This document shows positions 1 through 63,171 of a DNA stretch of 64,000 bases, piece by piece. Source of the stretch: Rhodoferax sp. (GTDB lineage Bacteria; Pseudomonadota; Gammaproteobacteria; Burkholderiales; Burkholderiaceae_C); assembly GCA_008015235.1 (NCBI GenBank), contig SSFF01000010.1:1-64000 (forward strand), read 5' to 3'. Position 1 is the stretch's first letter; every line of letters starts with the position of its first letter. The translations under genes were made by a program, and so were the position numbers. The notes beneath the pieces were generated by a model. That model saw only the letters and a program-made list of their open reading frames with translations. It made no database searches and had not been told where the DNA came from.

Positions 1-866
1 CCCTTGAACTTGTCGCTGGTCATGATGGCGGTGCGCTGCACGCTGGCCAGCAGAGGGGCGCGGCCCAGGGTCACGCTGTTCTTGTGGTTCTTGGGGATGA
101 CGCGGTTGTAGTCGGGGAACTTGCCTTCGACCAGCTTGGTGACGAACTCCATGCCGCCAAAGCTGAACTTGGCCTGGTTGGGAGCAAACTGCATCTCGAT
201 CATCGGCGCGTCCTGGCCTTCAGGCACGCTGGCGTCGGACAGCAGGCGCTGCAGCTCGATCACGGTCTTGCGCGGCAGGATCACTTCCTGCTTGGGCACT
301 TCGACGTCGAGCTTGGCGGAGGCAAAGGCCAGGCGGTGGCCGTCGGTGGCGACCAGGCTCAGGGTGTCGCCTTCGGCCACGAACAGGATGCCGTTGAGGT
401 AGTAGCGGATATCGTGCACTGCCATGGCAAAGGCCACCTGGTCCATCAGACCCTTGAGTGTCTTTTGCGGAATGCTGAACGCGGGGCCGAAATTGGGCGA
501 CTCCTGCACCAGCGGAAAGTCTTCAGCCGGCAGGGTCTGCAAAGTGAATTTGCTCTTGCCACCCTTGACAATCAGCTTGTTCTGGCTCGATTCGAGCGAG
601 ACCGTCTGGTCGGACGGCATGGTGCGCAAGATGTCGATGAGCTTCTTGGCGCCGACGGTGGTGGTGAAGTTACCGGTGTCGCCACCGAGTTCGGCCGTGG
701 TGCGGATCTGGATTTCCAGATCGCTGGTGGTCAGTTGCAGGGTGCCGGCGGTTTTGCGCAGCAGGATGTTGGCCAGGATCGGCAAGGTATGGCGGCGTTC
801 AACGATGCCGGCTACGGACTGCAGTACCGACAGGACTTTGTCCTGGGGGGCTTTCAATACGATCAT
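1..866 (-). CDS. dnaN: DNA polymerase III beta sliding clamp, C-terminus cut by window edge
   Basis: This is the ring-shaped clamp that tethers the replicative polymerase to DNA. About 288 residues are visible, starting [10 protein letters not shown] and running off the left edge; the family is usually about 366 residues, so roughly the last 80 are missing. The N-terminal reading continues through [12 protein letters not shown] and later YYLNGILF and ATDGHRLA, which are typical clamp segments. The ATG at 866 has a good ribosome binding site (GAGGT on the minus strand, 871-875). It follows dnaA on the same strand with a 139-bp gap, the usual dnaA-dnaN order, so the pair is probably co-transcribed. 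Nothing odd is seen in the visible part. Confidence 0.97.
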
Positions 867-1005
867 GTCTACCTCAAAGCGTGTTGTGGGGCTCCAGCGG
901 CATGTCCGCTTGGTGCGCTTGTGGGGGCAATCCCGCCATTTTCTCTTGTTTTAGCGACAAAACGGTGGCAGCGGATGCGGTTTTTGTGGGCAGGGTTTGC
1001 ACGGA

Positions 1006-2400
1006 TCAGCCTTTGAGCGTTTGCTCCAGCACGTGCAGCTGCTGGTTCAGTTCGGTCATCTGCTGGCGCTCGGCTGCAATCTTGCGGACGGCGTGCAGCA
1101 CCGTGGTGTGGTCGCGCCCGCCAAACATTTCGCCGATCTCGGGCAGGCTCTTCTGGGTGAGCTCCTTGGCCAGGTACATGGCAATCTGGCGCGGCCGGGC
1201 AATGCTGGCCGGGCGTTTCTTGCTGTACATGTCGGCGACCTTGATCTTGTAATAGTCGGCCACGGTCTTCTGGATGTTTTCCACCGAAATCTGCCGGTTC
1301 TGGATCGACAGCAAGTCACGCAGGGCATCGCGCGCCAGCTGGATGGATATCTCCTTCTGGTTGAAGCGCGAATAGGCCAGCACCTTGCGCAGCGCGCCTT
1401 CGAGCTCACGCACGTTGGAACGCACGTTCTTGGCCACGAAGAACGCTACTTCTTCGGGCATCTCCGAGCCTTCCTGCTGCGCCTTGTTGATCAGGATCGC
1501 CACCCGCATTTCGAGCTCGGGCGGTTCGATGGCCACCGTCAGGCCGGAGTCAAAGCGCGAAATCAGGCGCTCGTGGATGTCGGCCAGCCCCTTGGGGTAG
1601 GTGTCGCTGGTCATGACGATGTGGCTCTTCTTGGCCAGCAAGGCCTCGAAGGCGTTGAAGAACTCTTCCTGCGTGCGTTCCTTGTTGGCAAAAAACTGCA
1701 CATCGTCGATCAGCAGCAAATCCAGCGAGTGGTACCGCTCTTTGAATTCGTCAAAAGTTTTGCGCTGGTAGGCCTTAACCACATCCGTGACAAATTGCTC
1801 TGCATGGATGTAGAGAACTTTGGCACTGGGCTTGTCCTGGAGCAAGCGGTTGCCGATGGCATGCATCAAATGGGTCTTGCCCAGGCCGACACCACCGTAG
1901 ATGAAAAGAGGGTTGTACAACTGGCCCGGCGTATGGGCCACGTGCATGGCGGCGGCACGTGCCATGCGGTTGGCAGTGCCTTCCACCAGGTTGTCGAAGG
2001 TCAAGGCAGTATTGATGCGATTCTTGGCCAGCCCATTGGACTTTTCGGCCTCCCCCCCTTCACCCTCCTCGGTGTTTGCCATGGGGGCAGGCTTGGGGGC
2101 AATCGTGGTGCGCACAGGGGCTTCGCGCGGAGTGATCGCTAACTCAATTTCAACCGAACGTCCGGAAACCTGCTCCAGCAGGGCAGCAAGGCGCTTGCCG
2201 TACTGCGCGCGCAGCCAGTCCAGCTTGAAGCGGTTGGCGACAAATACCGTGACTTTGGAGAAGTCGGCGGCGACCTGGGCATTGAGTGGTTTGATCCAGG
2301 TGTTGAACTGTTGCTCCGGCAGTTCCTGGGCCAACAGGCCGACACAGTCCTGCCACAGCAATTGCCCGGCATCGGGCTGGTTGGGGGGGGGTGATAACAC
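1006..2400 (-). CDS. dnaA: Chromosomal replication initiator protein DnaA
   Basis: DnaA binds 9-bp DnaA boxes at the origin and melts the adjacent AT-rich DNA. The 464-residue protein has the N-terminal helicase-interaction domain (about 1-85), a variable acidic linker (100-125), the AAA+ core with Walker [10 protein letters not shown] (169-177) and Walker [11 protein letters not shown] (228-237), and the C-terminal DNA-binding domain with [15 protein letters not shown] (427-441). The start is GTG at 2400, preceded by AGAGGAAA about 6 bases away. It lies upstream of dnaN. The promoter side carries one perfect DnaA box and one near-match, which fits autoregulation. The best origin candidate in the window is not here but 41 kb to the right, beside minC. 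Confidence 0.98.
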
Positions 2401-18289: not shown

Positions 18290-18490
18290 ACACCCCCTCT
18301 GTTTGGAACCTGAGAGATTTGCAGCCGGGGCTTGTGGCCAGGCTGTTTGCTCCTGCGGTGTGCCAGTTGACTAGACCTGGCAGCTCTTCAGAGTATTGCG
18401 TGGCGATCGGTCCTTTTGCCTGAGAGATTCCGGGGCGGTTGCTCCTTCGGCGCTGCACGGTGTGTCCCTTGCAGTCTCTCCCGATCACCA
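18290..18490 (-). ncRNA. Tandem glycine riboswitch
   Basis: Read on the minus strand, two glycine aptamers follow each other. Aptamer I (about 18490-18398) has GGGAGAGAC, CGCCGAAGGAGCAA and AATCTCTCAGGCAAAAGGAC. The linker reads ACTCTGAAGAGC. Aptamer II (about 18393-18294) has CACCGCAGGAGCAAA and AAATCTCTCAGGTTCC. These are the hallmarks of the cooperative tandem glycine riboswitch. The first gene downstream is the LivJ-type binding protein (start 18003). Elsewhere this switch usually controls gcvTHP or a glycine/alanine symporter. The ~290-base leader after the aptamers has no obvious terminator. Confidence 0.88.
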
Positions 18491-18577
18491 TCGATATGAC
18501 ATGTATTGTCGCAGGCCGCACCGTGCCCAGCCTGACAGAATCCTTGCTACCGAGCGCCGTACAAGACTGCGCTGCGA

Positions 18578-42576: not shown

Positions 42577-43365
42577 TCAGGATTTGAGGGCTTCAAACAA
42601 CAGTTTTTCCAACCCGTCGTTGCTCAAGCGCACCTGCGCGCACTTGCCGCGCACATCGGGGGCCAAGGGGTTTTCGCTGGTGCGGTAGACACCGGCAATG
42701 GACACCAGTTCGGGGTCCAGGCTCAACGCAAAAACGCGGGCATTGGCATTGCCACGCGCACCGGCCATGGCCTTGCCACGCAAGCTTGAGTAGACATGGA
42801 TATTGCCATCGGCCACCACTTCGGCACCCGGATTGACGGGTGCCAGCACGACCAGATCGCCACCACGGGCATAAACCTTCTGGCCGGAACGCAAAGGTTT
42901 GTCCACCACCATGGTAGCGGGGCCCGGCACTTCCCGGACGACCTCGCGCACCACTTCCTGCACCTGCACCGCTGCAGTTTCGCTGGCCGGCGCTGACTTG
43001 GACTGGCGATGCACTTCGGGTTCGGCTTTGCACAGACCTAATTCCTGCGCAGCTTGCATCCAAGAGTCACTCGCACCACGCATGGCCACCGGCATCAGAT
43101 TGCATTGCCGCAATGTCCTGAGCAGGGGAACGATGTCGTCCACCGGTGTGTCTTGCGGCAAGGCCGAAAAATCCACGACCAGGGCGTCATGGTCGAAAAA
43201 ATCTGGGCTATCGCCTTGGGGACCAAACTCAGCCAGGAGCTCGTGCTGCAGTTGCTGCCAATCGGTGGTGTGTACCAACAAGGCTACCAGTGGCAATTGC
43301 GCGCTTTTGATTTCAAAGCTCTTGGGCGCGGCAGTTTGCTTTGCAGCGGGTGGACTCACAGGCAT
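42577..43365 (-). CDS. minC: Septum site-determining protein MinC
   Basis: The FtsZ-assembly inhibitor of the Min system. The 262-residue protein has the N-terminal FtsZ-binding domain (SFEIKSAQLPLVALLV), an alanine-rich linker (about 120-160) and the C-terminal beta-helix with VYARGGDLVVLAPVNPGAEVVADGNIHVY in parts and RGKAMAGARGN, which binds MinD. Length is normal for betaproteobacteria. It is the first gene of minCDE and its upstream side is the AT-rich DnaA-box region at 43455-43710, so its promoter may overlap the origin. Confidence 0.96.
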   Translation of the reverse strand: MPVSPPAAKQTAAPKSFEIKSAQLPLVALLVHTTDWQQLQHELLAEFGPQGDSPDFFDHDALVVDFSALPQDTPVDDIVPLLRTLRQCNLMPVAMRGASDSWMQAAQELGLCKAEPEVHRQSKSAPASETAAVQVQEVVREVVREVPGPATMVVDKPLRSGQKVYARGGDLVVLAPVNPGAEVVADGNIHVYSSLRGKAMAGARGNANARVFALSLDPELVSIAGVYRTSENPLAPDVRGKCAQVRLSNDGLEKLLFEALKS

Positions 43366-43540
43366 GAAAGGGAGGGGTTGGGGTCGGCGGGAAACGCAAA
43401 TCTTACTTGATTGCTGCCTCTTCTCCGCGAAAAAAGCCTGCTGCTGCGCCTTTCATGATTCAATGGTCTGGAAGTTGTTCTTCTTATCTTCTTTTATTCT
43501 TTGATAAAGATAGCAGTAGTAGATAAGCAAAGTACTTTAT

Positions 43541-43549
43541 TGTGGAAAA
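43541..43549 (-). promoter_or_regulatory. Weak DnaA box (one mismatch)
   Basis: Minus strand TTTTCCACA, one change from TTATCCACA, inside the AT-rich block of the candidate origin. Confidence 0.45.
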
Positions 43550-43659
43550 CCCCATAAAGTTCATTTTTATCAAGTACTTGCGGTAGCTGGATAGGTGTGG
43601 GTACCTGTGCTTTCCAAATGTTCTGCGAACTGGAACAACTTTCGCGGAATCCAAAAAGT

Positions 43660-43668
43660 TGTGGATAA
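43660..43668 (-). promoter_or_regulatory. Perfect DnaA box
   Basis: Minus strand TTATCCACA, an exact consensus box, at the right side of the candidate origin. Confidence 0.75.
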
Positions 43669-43687
43669 GTAGCAGGTTGCCAGAAAC

Positions 43688-43696
43688 TTATACACA
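43688..43696 (+). promoter_or_regulatory. Consensus DnaA box TTATNCACA
   Basis: TTATACACA on the plus strand, facing the perfect box 20 bp away. A weaker relative (TTATACAGG) follows at 43700-43708. Confidence 0.65.
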
Positions 43697-43722
43697 GGTT
43701 TATACAGGGAAGGAAATTTCAC

Positions 43723-44673
43723 ATGCGGCGCTGGTTAGGGTACGGGGTCGGGGCTTTTGCGGCATTTCTGCTGCTGGCAATCGTTTGGATCGGCTTGAAT
43801 TGGGAACCGGATCGCCCGGTAGAGCAACTTGCTCAGAAATGGGCCCAACCACCGTCCCGGATGCTGGCACTCCAGGGAATGCAGGTGCATTTGCGTGACG
43901 AAGGGCCACGCGACGATCCCTTGCCGGTCGTGTTGCTGCACGGAACGTCGGACAGCTTGCATACATGGCAAGGATGGGTGGATGTGCTGGCGACGCAGCG
44001 GCGGGTCATACGGGTTGATTTGCCGGCCTTCGGGTTGACGGGTCCCCACCCACAAGGGGACTATTCCATCGCCATGTATGTGCGCTTCGTCCTGGCGGTG
44101 ATGGACAGTCTGCAGGTGCCCAGGGCCGTGGTGGGTGGCAATTCGCTGGGTGGACAGATTGCCTGGGGAATCGCGGTGGCGGCTCCACAGCGCGTGGACA
44201 GTCTCATCCTGGTGGACGCTGCCGGTTACCCGATGCAACCCAAGTCGGTTCCGGTCGGTTTCCTGATTGCCCGCATGCCAGGGGTGCGCAGTGCCATGGA
44301 GTATGTCCTTCCGCGTCGCGTGGTGAAGTCGAGCGTGCGCAACGTCTATGGTCAGCCCGAGCGGGTGACGCCAGAGTTGGTGGATCGCTACTTCGAGCTG
44401 ACTTTGCGTGCTGGCAACCGCAAGGCGCTGGCGCAGCGCATGGACCAGCGCCTGTGGGGGGATGAAGAGAAGATCAGGACGATCAAGCAACCTACCCTCA
44501 TACTCTGGGGTGCGCAGGACCGTCTGATTCCATTGGAAAATGGCAGGAAATTCGAAACCGATATTGCCGGTGCACGGTTGGTGGTGTTGGAAGGATTGGG
44601 GCATGTGCCCCAGGAAGAAGACGCTGCTGCCACGGTGAAGGTGGTGCAGGAGTTTCTGGGAAAACGCCATTGA
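43723..44673 (+). CDS. Membrane-anchored alpha/beta hydrolase
   Basis: A 316-residue serine hydrolase with one N-terminal membrane helix (about 7-26), so it is probably tethered to the inner membrane with the catalytic domain in the periplasm. The oxyanion segment is LLHGTSDSLHTW, the nucleophile is Ser141 in GGNSLGG, the acidic residue is in LILWGAQDRLIP, and the histidine in LEGLGHVPQEE. The substrate is unknown. It begins 13 bp from the right edge of the candidate origin, with AAGGAAA as ribosome binding site, and precedes a diguanylate cyclase gene by 72 bp. Confidence 0.9.
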   Translation: MRRWLGYGVGAFAAFLLLAIVWIGLNWEPDRPVEQLAQKWAQPPSRMLALQGMQVHLRDEGPRDDPLPVVLLHGTSDSLHTWQGWVDVLATQRRVIRVDLPAFGLTGPHPQGDYSIAMYVRFVLAVMDSLQVPRAVVGGNSLGGQIAWGIAVAAPQRVDSLILVDAAGYPMQPKSVPVGFLIARMPGVRSAMEYVLPRRVVKSSVRNVYGQPERVTPELVDRYFELTLRAGNRKALAQRMDQRLWGDEEKIRTIKQPTLILWGAQDRLIPLENGRKFETDIAGARLVVLEGLGHVPQEEDAAATVKVVQEFLGKRH

Positions 44674-60466: not shown

Positions 60467-62515
60467 ATGATTTACCCACAACATTTCGACGTCATCGTCG
60501 TCGGCGGCGGCCATGCCGGTACCGAAGCGGCCCTGGCTGCCGCCCGCATGGGCTGCAAGACGCTGCTGCTGAGCCACAACATCGAAACCCTGGGGCAGAT
60601 GAGCTGCAACCCGTCCATCGGCGGCATCGGCAAGGGCCATCTGGTCAAGGAGGTGGATGCGCTGGGCGGGGCCATGGCGCTGGCGACCGACGAAGCGGGC
60701 ATCCAGTTCCGCATATTGAATAGTTCCAAGGGCCCGGCCGTGCGCGCCACCCGGGCCCAGGCCGACCGCGTGCTCTACAAGGCGACCATCCGCCGCATGC
60801 TGGAAAACCAGCCCAACCTGTGGCTGTTCCAGCAGGCCGTGGACGACCTGCTGGTGGAAGGCGAGCGCGTGGTGGGGGCGGTGACCCAGGTGGGCATTGC
60901 CTTCCGTTCCAGCACGGTGGTGCTGACGGCCGGTACCTTCCTCGACGGCAAGATCCATGTGGGTCTGAACAACTACGCCGCCGGGCGCGCGGGTGATCCG
61001 CCGGCCCAATCCTTGAGTGCCCGCCTGAAAGAACTGAAGCTGCCGCAGGGGCGGCTCAAGACCGGCACGCCGCCGCGCATCGACGGCCGTTCCATCGACT
61101 TTTCGCAATGCACCGAACAGCCTGGCGACGGCATGCCCGGCGGCGAGCGCCCCGAACTGGGCGTGCCGGTGTTCAGCTTCCTGGGCAACGCCCAGATGCA
61201 TCCGCAGCAGATGCCGTGCTGGATCACGCACACCAATGCGCGCACGCACGAGATCATCCGCAGCGGCTTCGACCGCAGCCCCATGTTCACCGGCAAGATC
61301 GAGGGGGTGGGGCCGCGTTACTGCCCCAGCGTGGAAGACAAGATCAACCGCTTTGCCGACAAGGAAAGCCACCAGATTTTCCTGGAACCCGAGGGGCTGA
61401 CGACCCACGAGTACTACCCCAACGGCATCTCCACCAGCCTGCCGTTCGATGTGCAGTACGACCTGGTCAGAAGCATGAAGGGGCTGGAGAACGCGCACAT
61501 CCTGCGTCCCGGCTACGCCATCGAGTACGACTATTTCGACCCGCGCTCTTTGAAGAGCAGTTTCGAGACGCGCCAGATTGGCGGTTTGTTCTTTGCCGGC
61601 CAGATCAACGGCACCACGGGTTATGAAGAGGCGGCGGCGCAGGGCCTGTTTGCCGGCATCAATGCCGCACTGCAGGTGCGCGCCCTGGGCGGTGAAGCCA
61701 GCGAACGCATGGAAGCTGCTTCTGCCGCCGGCAGCATTACCTATACCGGTGACACCTGGCTGCCCAGCCGCGATCAGGCCTACCTGGGTGTGCTGGTGGA
61801 CGACCTCATCACCAAGGGCGTGACCGAACCCTACCGCATGTTCACCAGCCGCGCCGAGTTCCGCCTGCAGTTGCGTGAGGACAATGCCGACGCCCGCCTG
61901 ACCGAGGATGGCCGGGCCTTGGGTCTGGTGGACGATGTGCGTTGGGAAACCTATTGCCGCAAGCGCGACGCTGTTTCACGTGAAACAGAACGTCTGAAAT
62001 CGATCTGGGTGAATCCGCGCAATCTGGATCAGGCCGAGGCTGAGCGCGTATTGGGTAAGTCCATTGACCACGAATACAACCTGGCCGACCTGCTGCGCCG
62101 CCCCGGTGTGACCTACGAAACATTGGTGGGCATGGAGGGTGGGCGCTTTGTGAATGCCGACCTGCTGCCATCTGTTTCACGTGAAACCTCTCCCGTGCAG
62201 GAGGAGGTGCTGCGTGCCAGCGTGCAGGAGCAGGTGGAGATCGGTATCAAGTACGCAGGCTATATTGATCGCCAGAAAGGCGAGATTGAACGTGCAGCCT
62301 ACTACGAGAACCTGCGCCTGCCGGCGGACCTGGATTGCATGCAGGTGTCGGCCCTGAGCATCGAAGCACGGCAACGCCTGAACAAGCACCGGCCAGAAAC
62401 CCTGGGTCAGGCCTCGCGCCTGTCGGGCATCACCCCGGCCACCATTTCGCTGCTGCTGATCCATCTGAAGAAGGGCAAGTTCAAAGGCTTTGCCACGGAA
62501 GCGGAGGCGGTGTGA
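60467..62515 (+). CDS. mnmG: tRNA uridine-5-carboxymethylaminomethyl modification enzyme MnmG
   Basis: MnmG (GidA) is the FAD partner of MnmE in wobble-uridine modification. The 682-residue protein begins [20 protein letters not shown] with the FAD motif at 13-18, and has [18 protein letters not shown] and [11 protein letters not shown] use ATG 60467; a GTG four codons upstream is possible. Two parS-type sites lie inside its C-terminal half (61972-61987 and 62173-62188), encoding SRET in both cases. It overlaps rsmG by one base (TGATG). Confidence 0.97.
61972..61987. other. parS chromosome-partitioning site 1 (perfect)
   Basis: TGTTTCACGTGAAACA, an exact 16-bp palindromic parS consensus, lying in the mnmG coding frame where it encodes the residues VSRET. 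Confidence 0.92.
62173..62188. other. parS chromosome-partitioning site 2 (one mismatch)
   Basis: TGTTTCACGTGAAACC, one change from consensus, again encoding VSRET in mnmG, 201 bp after site 1. Confidence 0.88.
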
Positions 62516-63171
62516 TGGCAGTGCTGACGGATCGGATTCTGGATGCGGGCACCAAGCTGGGCTTGGACTTGAGCGCCCAGCAGGCGCAACTGCTGGCCGA
62601 CTACCTGGCGCTGATCCAAAAGTGGACCAAGGTCTACAACCTGACCGCCGTGCGCGACCCCGAGGAAATGCTCACGCACCACCTGTTTGACAGCTTGTCG
62701 GTGATTGCGCCGCTGCAGCGGCAGTTGGCAGGCATGGGGAAGGGCGAGGCTGCCCGCTTGCTCGACGTGGGTTCGGGTGCCGGACTGCCGGGCGTGGTCA
62801 TTGCCATTTGCTGCCCGGCCGTGAAGGTGGATTGTGTGGACACCGTGGGCAAGAAGGCGGCCTTCATCCAGCAAGTGGCGGTGAGCCTGGGGCTCAAGAA
62901 TTTGCGCGGGGTCCATGCGCGGGTGGAGTCGTTGACCGATGGCTACGACGTGGTCAGCTCGCGCGCGTTTGCTTCGCTGGTGGACTTCACCACCTGGTCG
63001 CGGTCGGCGGTGGGGGAGGGTGGGGTTTGGATGGGGATGAAGGGGAAGTACCCTGCCGATGAGTTGGCTGCGCTGCCTGCATCGGTGGCGGTGTTTCACG
63101 TGGAACAGTTGGTGGTGCCGGGGCTGGATGCGGAACGGTGCATTGTGTGGATGCGGCCGGTCGCTGCTTGA
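62515..63171 (+). CDS. rsmG: 16S rRNA (guanine527-N7)-methyltransferase RsmG
   Basis: RsmG (GidB) methylates G527 of 16S rRNA. The 218-residue protein has YLALIQKWTKVYNLTAVRD, HHLFDSLSV, and the SAM-binding motif LLDVGSGAGLPGVV. ATG 62515 overlaps the mnmG stop. The third parS-type site (63092-63107) encodes VFHVEQ near the C-terminus. In many bacteria parA-parB follow rsmG; here no par gene is seen before the window ends, and a repeat-rich stretch follows. Confidence 0.97.
   Translation: MAVLTDRILDAGTKLGLDLSAQQAQLLADYLALIQKWTKVYNLTAVRDPEEMLTHHLFDSLSVIAPLQRQLAGMGKGEAARLLDVGSGAGLPGVVIAICCPAVKVDCVDTVGKKAAFIQQVAVSLGLKNLRGVHARVESLTDGYDVVSSRAFASLVDFTTWSRSAVGEGGVWMGMKGKYPADELAALPASVAVFHVEQLVVPGLDAERCIVWMRPVAA
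63092..63107. other. parS chromosome-partitioning site 3 (one mismatch)
   Basis: TGTTTCACGTGGAACA, one change from consensus, inside rsmG where it encodes FHVEQ. Confidence 0.85.

Follow-up and report, generated by a model that had tools for sequence, protein, structure and literature searches.

A probable chromosomal replication origin beside minC, away from dnaA, in a Rhodoferax-type bacterium

In origin prediction, as the Ori-Finder description states, the dnaA gene is the default landmark. The locus described here raises the question of whether the origin of a Rhodoferax-type bacterium lies at that landmark or beside minC, where an earlier note had placed it. The DNA analyzed (the window) is a stretch of 64 kb that forms the start of contig C47 (128,085 bp) in a draft genome of 3.65 Mb and 48 contigs. 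A Pfam search confirmed dnaA (1006-2400, minus strand), rpmH, yidC, mnmE, minD, minC (42577..43365, minus strand; MinC_C and MinC_N), an alpha/beta hydrolase gene (43723..44673, plus strand) and a GGDEF gene. Named genomes with the top matches to minC carry the labels Rhodoferax, Burkholderiales, Comamonadaceae or beta proteobacterium, which makes the organism Rhodoferax-like. The candidate origin has minC as its left neighbor and the hydrolase gene as its right neighbor; the latter is also found in locus L219 and, judged by eye in an alignment of minC upstream regions (A1), is absent from some relatives. The window further contains a glycine riboswitch aptamer at 18398-18493 on the minus strand (Rfam RF00504, 70.5 bits). 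We consider it highly likely, on the grounds of sequence, that this bacterium has its chromosomal oriC in the gap between minC and the hydrolase gene.

The intergenic region holds an ordered set of elements within a module at 43476..43706 (plus strand), which matches a profile of the module (R1) with 113.5 bits and an E value of 4e-33 when the window is left out of the profile. At its left end lies an AT-rich block (43476..43541, plus strand) that is a candidate DNA unwinding element. The long AT-rich block reported by the earlier note is borne out, as the gap holds the AT-richest 50 bp (43492-43541, 76%), 100 bp (43471-43570, 72%) and 200 bp (43472-43671, 63.5%) of the window, the runner-up 200-bp stretch reaching 54.5%. 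Inside the block is a DnaA-trio-like run, TAGCAGTAGTAG (43511..43522, plus strand), which reads 3'-GAT GAT GAC GAT-5' away from a DnaA box at 43541..43549 (minus strand; TTTTCCACA) that faces it across an 18-nt spacer. This is followed by a candidate IHF-like site, TATCAAGTACTTG (43568..43580, plus strand), matched to the IHF consensus, and by two further DnaA boxes facing each other across 19 nt: a strong box, TTATCCACA (43660..43668, minus strand), whose TGTG.ATAA is invariant in alignments A1 and A2, and TTATACACA (43688..43696, plus strand). Both of these boxes, one perfect and one consensus, are where the earlier note had seen them; the trio run and the IHF-like site are additional to the parts that it listed. 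In the same two alignments the trio run corresponds mostly to invariant columns of a TAGTAGTAG run, and the TCA core of the IHF-like site is invariant. The 18-nt trio-to-box spacer is about equal in relatives.

Such a concentration of elements is not expected by chance. The motif TTWTNCACA occurs five times in the 64 kb versus 1.66 expected, a number reached by one of 100 shuffles, and three of the five sites fall inside 156 bp. When the window was simulated 400 times with a first-order Markov model, three boxes never fell within 200 bp. That the box cluster and the AT-rich block exceed chance speaks for the module as an oriC.

The dnaA side of the window was described previously as the usual origin place, with only two boxes in the dnaA-rpmH gap. 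The count there is three, from 2433 to 2536, if a single mismatch is allowed, with one perfect box (2482), and the usual place itself needs correction: where modules of this family adjoin dnaA, they lie mostly in the dnaA-dnaN gap. The dnaA-dnaN gap of the window, about 140 bp long, contains no module by R1 search. In C47 (128 kb) and in the portions of two congeners that were compared (G007, 240 kb; G001, 180 kb), the densest DnaA-box cluster is the minC upstream region; second place goes to the dnaA-side clusters, outright in C47 and G007 and as a tie in G001. A cluster of DnaA boxes is by itself no proof of an origin, and the presence of one in the dnaA-rpmH gap of C47 and G007 agrees with another explanation, whereby the minC segment is either a DnaA-binding control site for titration or recharging, such as Escherichia coli datA or DARS, or a promoter region under DnaA control that serves minC or the hydrolase gene, with the origin at dnaA. 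Yet the module has an AT-rich block with trios, and datA- and DARS-type control sites are not known to have an unwinding block of that kind. Together with the distribution and skew data given below, this makes the control-site explanation very improbable. A further box arrangement was seen elsewhere in the assembly, at G000:C15:18739-24133, where two DnaA-box pairs with 188/187-bp spacing are repeated 5.2 kb apart and possibly represent a repeat or a control locus.

Comparison with relatives, which the earlier note had suggested, lends weight to the reading of the module as the origin. Twenty minC upstream regions, the window included, could be aligned across the gap (alignment A1), and a pattern scan of 44 named loci found the TAGTAGTAG-type run and the strong box in 37; in all but one of these the two are 144-151 bp apart. 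The pattern was absent from the remaining loci (L008, L009, L023, L031, L033, L037 and L044). Profile R1, built from 32 of the 37 positive loci with the window excluded, recovered the module in L023, L031 and L037, as well as in L044, where it lies about 1.3 kb from minC and is inverted; L008, L009 and L033, the last offering 96 bp upstream only, have none by pattern or R1, which counts against the reading. So does an R1 search of the stretch around minC in 36 further loci, mostly from other genera (L045-L080), which found a module beside minC in L054 and L076 only. When R1 was run against 48 stretches (988 kb) comprising the window, other sequence from the same genome and parts of G001, G007 and G034, it gave a single full-length match per genome, each at minC and in the window at 43476-43706, a fifth match being a short reverse one within the same window region. 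That the module is the sole full-length match per genome in this set also argues against its being a control site. Across the genus, all 36 congeners searched with R1 carry the unit of about 230 bp, and in 34 it is no more than 203 bp away from the minC match; the exceptions are G008, in which no minC was found, and G023, in which module and minC are on different contigs. One copy is present in 33 of the 36, two in tandem in G015 (G015:C84:42498-43176, upstream of minC), and two and three on different contigs in G013 and G031, respectively.

GC skew proved a less direct guide within the genus. The earlier note had proposed the place of the cumulative-skew minimum as a check on the module and would have taken a minimum at 2.4 kb or outside the window as evidence against it. 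Cumulative skew in the window declines to 34.1 kb and then rises, and the module is at 43.5 kb; the minimum thus misses both the module and the dnaA-rpmH gap, and the check does not come out cleanly for the module. Local minima and modules are likewise separated in G007 (626.7 versus 598.4 kb), G001 (31.4 versus 59.6 kb) and G034 (753.4 versus 773.1 kb), with offsets of 9-28 kb in the window and the three congeners (20-28 kb in the congeners), and in these congeners too the minimum falls between minC and dnaA. Strand-corrected change-point fits place the switch at 39.9 kb in the window, 628 kb in G007, 13.4 kb in G001 and 752.6 kb in G034; the G001 fit is closer to dnaA (0.2 kb) than to the module, a point in favor of the control-site explanation, and the G007 fit is about midway. 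Since the minima are 9-28 kb off in four genomes and strand correction was no remedy, local cumulative skew was rejected as decisive. Coarse skew in 16 stretches of G007 was negative in all eight between 2.75 Mb and 0.5 Mb, across position 0, and positive in six of the eight between 0.75 and 2.5 Mb, with the module at 0.598 Mb; the sample taken where the contig begins is 37.5% N. In this genus the skew is blurred close to the origin, and G001 and G007 do not separate dnaA from the module.

The position of the minima suggests another possibility, that replication starts somewhere between dnaA and minC, close to the skew minimum at about 34 kb, and that the module at minC has a secondary role or is dormant. 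The minima of all four genomes are on the dnaA side of the module, and the strand-corrected fits roughly agree in three. However, C47 has no box cluster at 34 kb, none of the eight best clusters in G007 and G001 is at the minimum (the nearest in G001 consists of two one-mismatch boxes at 35.6 kb, 4 kb off), and no R1 match was found near the minimum. The skew itself may also have been disturbed: the 38.5-41.5 kb block of the window, in the rising part of the curve, has its homologues 36-48 kb past the module, on the other side, in G034, G001 and G007, so this block was probably relocated and its skew may be foreign. In addition, the dnaA block of the window (1-34 kb) is inverted relative to the same three genomes. 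We infer that rearrangement could be part of the cause of the offset in the window, which leaves the offsets in G007, G001 and G034 unexplained.

Because congener skew was indecisive, three relatives with the module far from dnaA (G118, G323 and G289) were sampled in stretches of 15-20 kb each. In G118, from another genus and with dnaA 459 kb away, 17 of 17 stretches are negative before the module and three of three positive after it. The best change there is bracketed by stretches that end at 1785 kb and begin at 1787 kb, with the module at 1785.7 kb. In G323, also from another genus and with the module at minC and dnaA 179 kb off, 11 of 13 stretches are negative before and seven of seven positive after, and the stretches on either side of the best change end at 707 kb and begin at 708 kb, around a module at 707.4-707.6 kb. 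The stretches sampled in G289 had no readable skew. In the two relatives with a distant dnaA whose skew could be read, the switch is therefore at the module, which counts against an origin between the two genes, an alternative that we regard as very improbable, and equally against a control site with the origin at dnaA.

Features elsewhere on the contig were considered as well, and the parS-like sites among them speak for the module. Three such sites, called from the parS consensus, lie at 61972, 62173 and 63092 (plus strand; span 61972..63107), in and after mnmG, which was identified by Pfam GIDA. Three compares with 0.23 expected from shuffles, and the sites are 18-19 kb from the module; parA- and parB-type genes come next on C47, near 65 and 66 kb. 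Comparable sites in G007, G034 and G001 are 25-37 kb from the module. At the other end of the contig, window 1-1224 resembles the first 1206 bp of another contig of the same assembly (G000:C30:1-1206) with 79% DNA identity, revealing a second dnaA 3' end with neighboring sequence that may reflect mixed strains, contamination or duplication. Contig C30 was considered as the left neighbor of C47 and dropped, given that its first 1.2 kb is only 79% identical to the window; the join also gives the wrong skew sign in four of the six C30 stretches sampled (100-420 kb), the first two being mixed.

The module extends well beyond the genus. R1 matches were found in 280 of 299 family genomes (this one included), representing 134 of 141 genera; a plain trio-plus-box pattern tried as a family search found just 20 of the 299, with two matches for a reversed control. 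Placement was examined in 40 genomes of one to three contigs each, all with R1 matches beforehand and thus not a random sample; distances are linear except in 13, and two short matches (G078 C2; G285 at 4.09 Mb) were omitted. The module is at minC only in five, at minC and in front of dnaA in one (G181, with no rpmH in the 1.5 kb examined at the front module), on the dnaN side of dnaA only in eight, both in the dnaA-dnaN gap and 29 kb away in one (G331), and elsewhere in 25. Its occurrence away from minC in other genera shows that it is not tied to minC regulation, a further argument against the control-site explanation. Seven of the nine dnaA-dnaN genomes have dnaN next to the module (G140, G159, G234, G236, G313, G331 and G357), as do six more family loci (L223-L227 and L234); G120 and G193 were classed there by their place 3' of dnaA, and G313 on the assumption of a circular contig, with the module and dnaN at one contig end and dnaA at the opposite end.

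Two or three near-full copies are present in 22 of the 40 genomes, from tandem doublets to copies up to 46 kb apart, the latter in G222, where two complete modules lie in opposite orientation. Three further contigs (G104:C55, G191:C15 and G226:C111) each carry two near-full modules about 4 kb apart. In some genomes, such as G181 (75% identity), the copies are each other's closest relatives, whereas in others they are not, those of G250 and G063 being closer to each other's counterparts, so the duplications seem to be of different ages. In other families of the order, R1 matched seven of 24 genomes, most of them weakly. In four of the seven the match is directly 3' of dnaA, near-full in G039 and G053 (E 1e-10 and 1e-11) and partial in G049 and G057; in G040, G043 (top score, a doublet) and G058 it is not. 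The matches 3' of dnaA suggest, without recourse to a tree, that the dnaA-dnaN gap is likely the older home. These data have led us to propose, as a single and quite tentative scheme that may well prove wrong, that oriC in this family is a unit that spreads by copying to new sites in the origin region, with later loss at the former site, that chromosomes with two complete modules, such as those of G181, G331 and G222, are intermediates that may fire from both, and that the Rhodoferax group is a lineage in which the minC copy became fixed.

What emerges is very probably an origin of ordinary kind in an unusual place: a DnaA-type oriC fixed at minC in the genus, and a module that moved and multiplied in the family. 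The titles and opening parts of abstracts searched, outside subscription journals and the DoriC tables, place no origin at minC. Among the 40 family genomes, 15 have their first position no more than 0.7 kb from dnaA, and 30 have no module within 1 kb of it. If the module is the origin, the dnaA landmark is misleading in this genus and in those 30 genomes, and the profile of about 230 bp offers a route to the origin in such genomes, drafts included. The doublets also offer a test of whether two complete origins can be present and active on one bacterial chromosome, a question that PMC4403523 calls open.

The placement of the origin beside minC is thus supported by the parts themselves, their near-fixed spacing in relatives, the conservation next to minC, the switches of skew in two genomes and, as described below, a match in register to the E. 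coli origin, all of which are observed; binding, opening and firing in this organism are what we infer from them. In the model that we favor, DnaA would occupy the three boxes, and an IHF-like protein, seated between the outer box and the two inner ones, would bend the DNA there and draw the box pair close. DnaA would then load from the box at 43541 onto the single-stranded trio run and open the adjacent AT-rich block, where helicase would be loaded for replication in both directions. The order of AT-rich block, trio run, box, IHF-like site and box pair fits DnaA loading from 43541.

As a control, R1 was run without filters on E. coli sequence; it matches the annotated oriC of E. coli K-12 with 25.8 bits, the box and IHF stretch being in register. 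Elsewhere in the 2 kb around that origin the best score is 6.0 bits, except for a 10.3-bit reverse match overlapping oriC. Only from model position 56 onward does the match extend, which leaves the trio and AT-rich part unaligned. E. coli oriC, in the mnmG-mioC gap, shares with the module an outer box (TGTGGATAA), an IHF-type stretch (ATCAACAACCTGG), to which the IHF-like site of the module aligns in register, and further boxes in the same order; the candidate IHF-like sequence thus sits between the outer box and the others, as in E. coli-type origins. E. coli oriC has more DnaA boxes than the module, and the E. coli dnaA gene sits elsewhere on the chromosome than oriC. The module adjoins minC, 17 kb from mnmG, whereas E. 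coli oriC adjoins mnmG; at one family locus (L220, in G213) the module is about 0.5 kb from the mnmG homologue, the gene that also neighbors the E. coli origin. With origins of the Bacillus subtilis type, whose basal unwinding system consists of DnaA-box, spacer and DnaA-trios, the module shares a box facing 3'-GAT-5' trios beside an AT-rich block, as that system is described in PMC8287927. The rule given there calls for three or more trios, each with A in the middle, no further than 16 nt from the box that they face; the module has four, at a spacing of 18 nt, which exceeds that limit and counts against the reading, and, unlike the B. subtilis type, an IHF-like site on the other side of the box. 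Other Burkholderiales carry the origin-type module in the dnaA-dnaN gap; in the window it is at minC instead.
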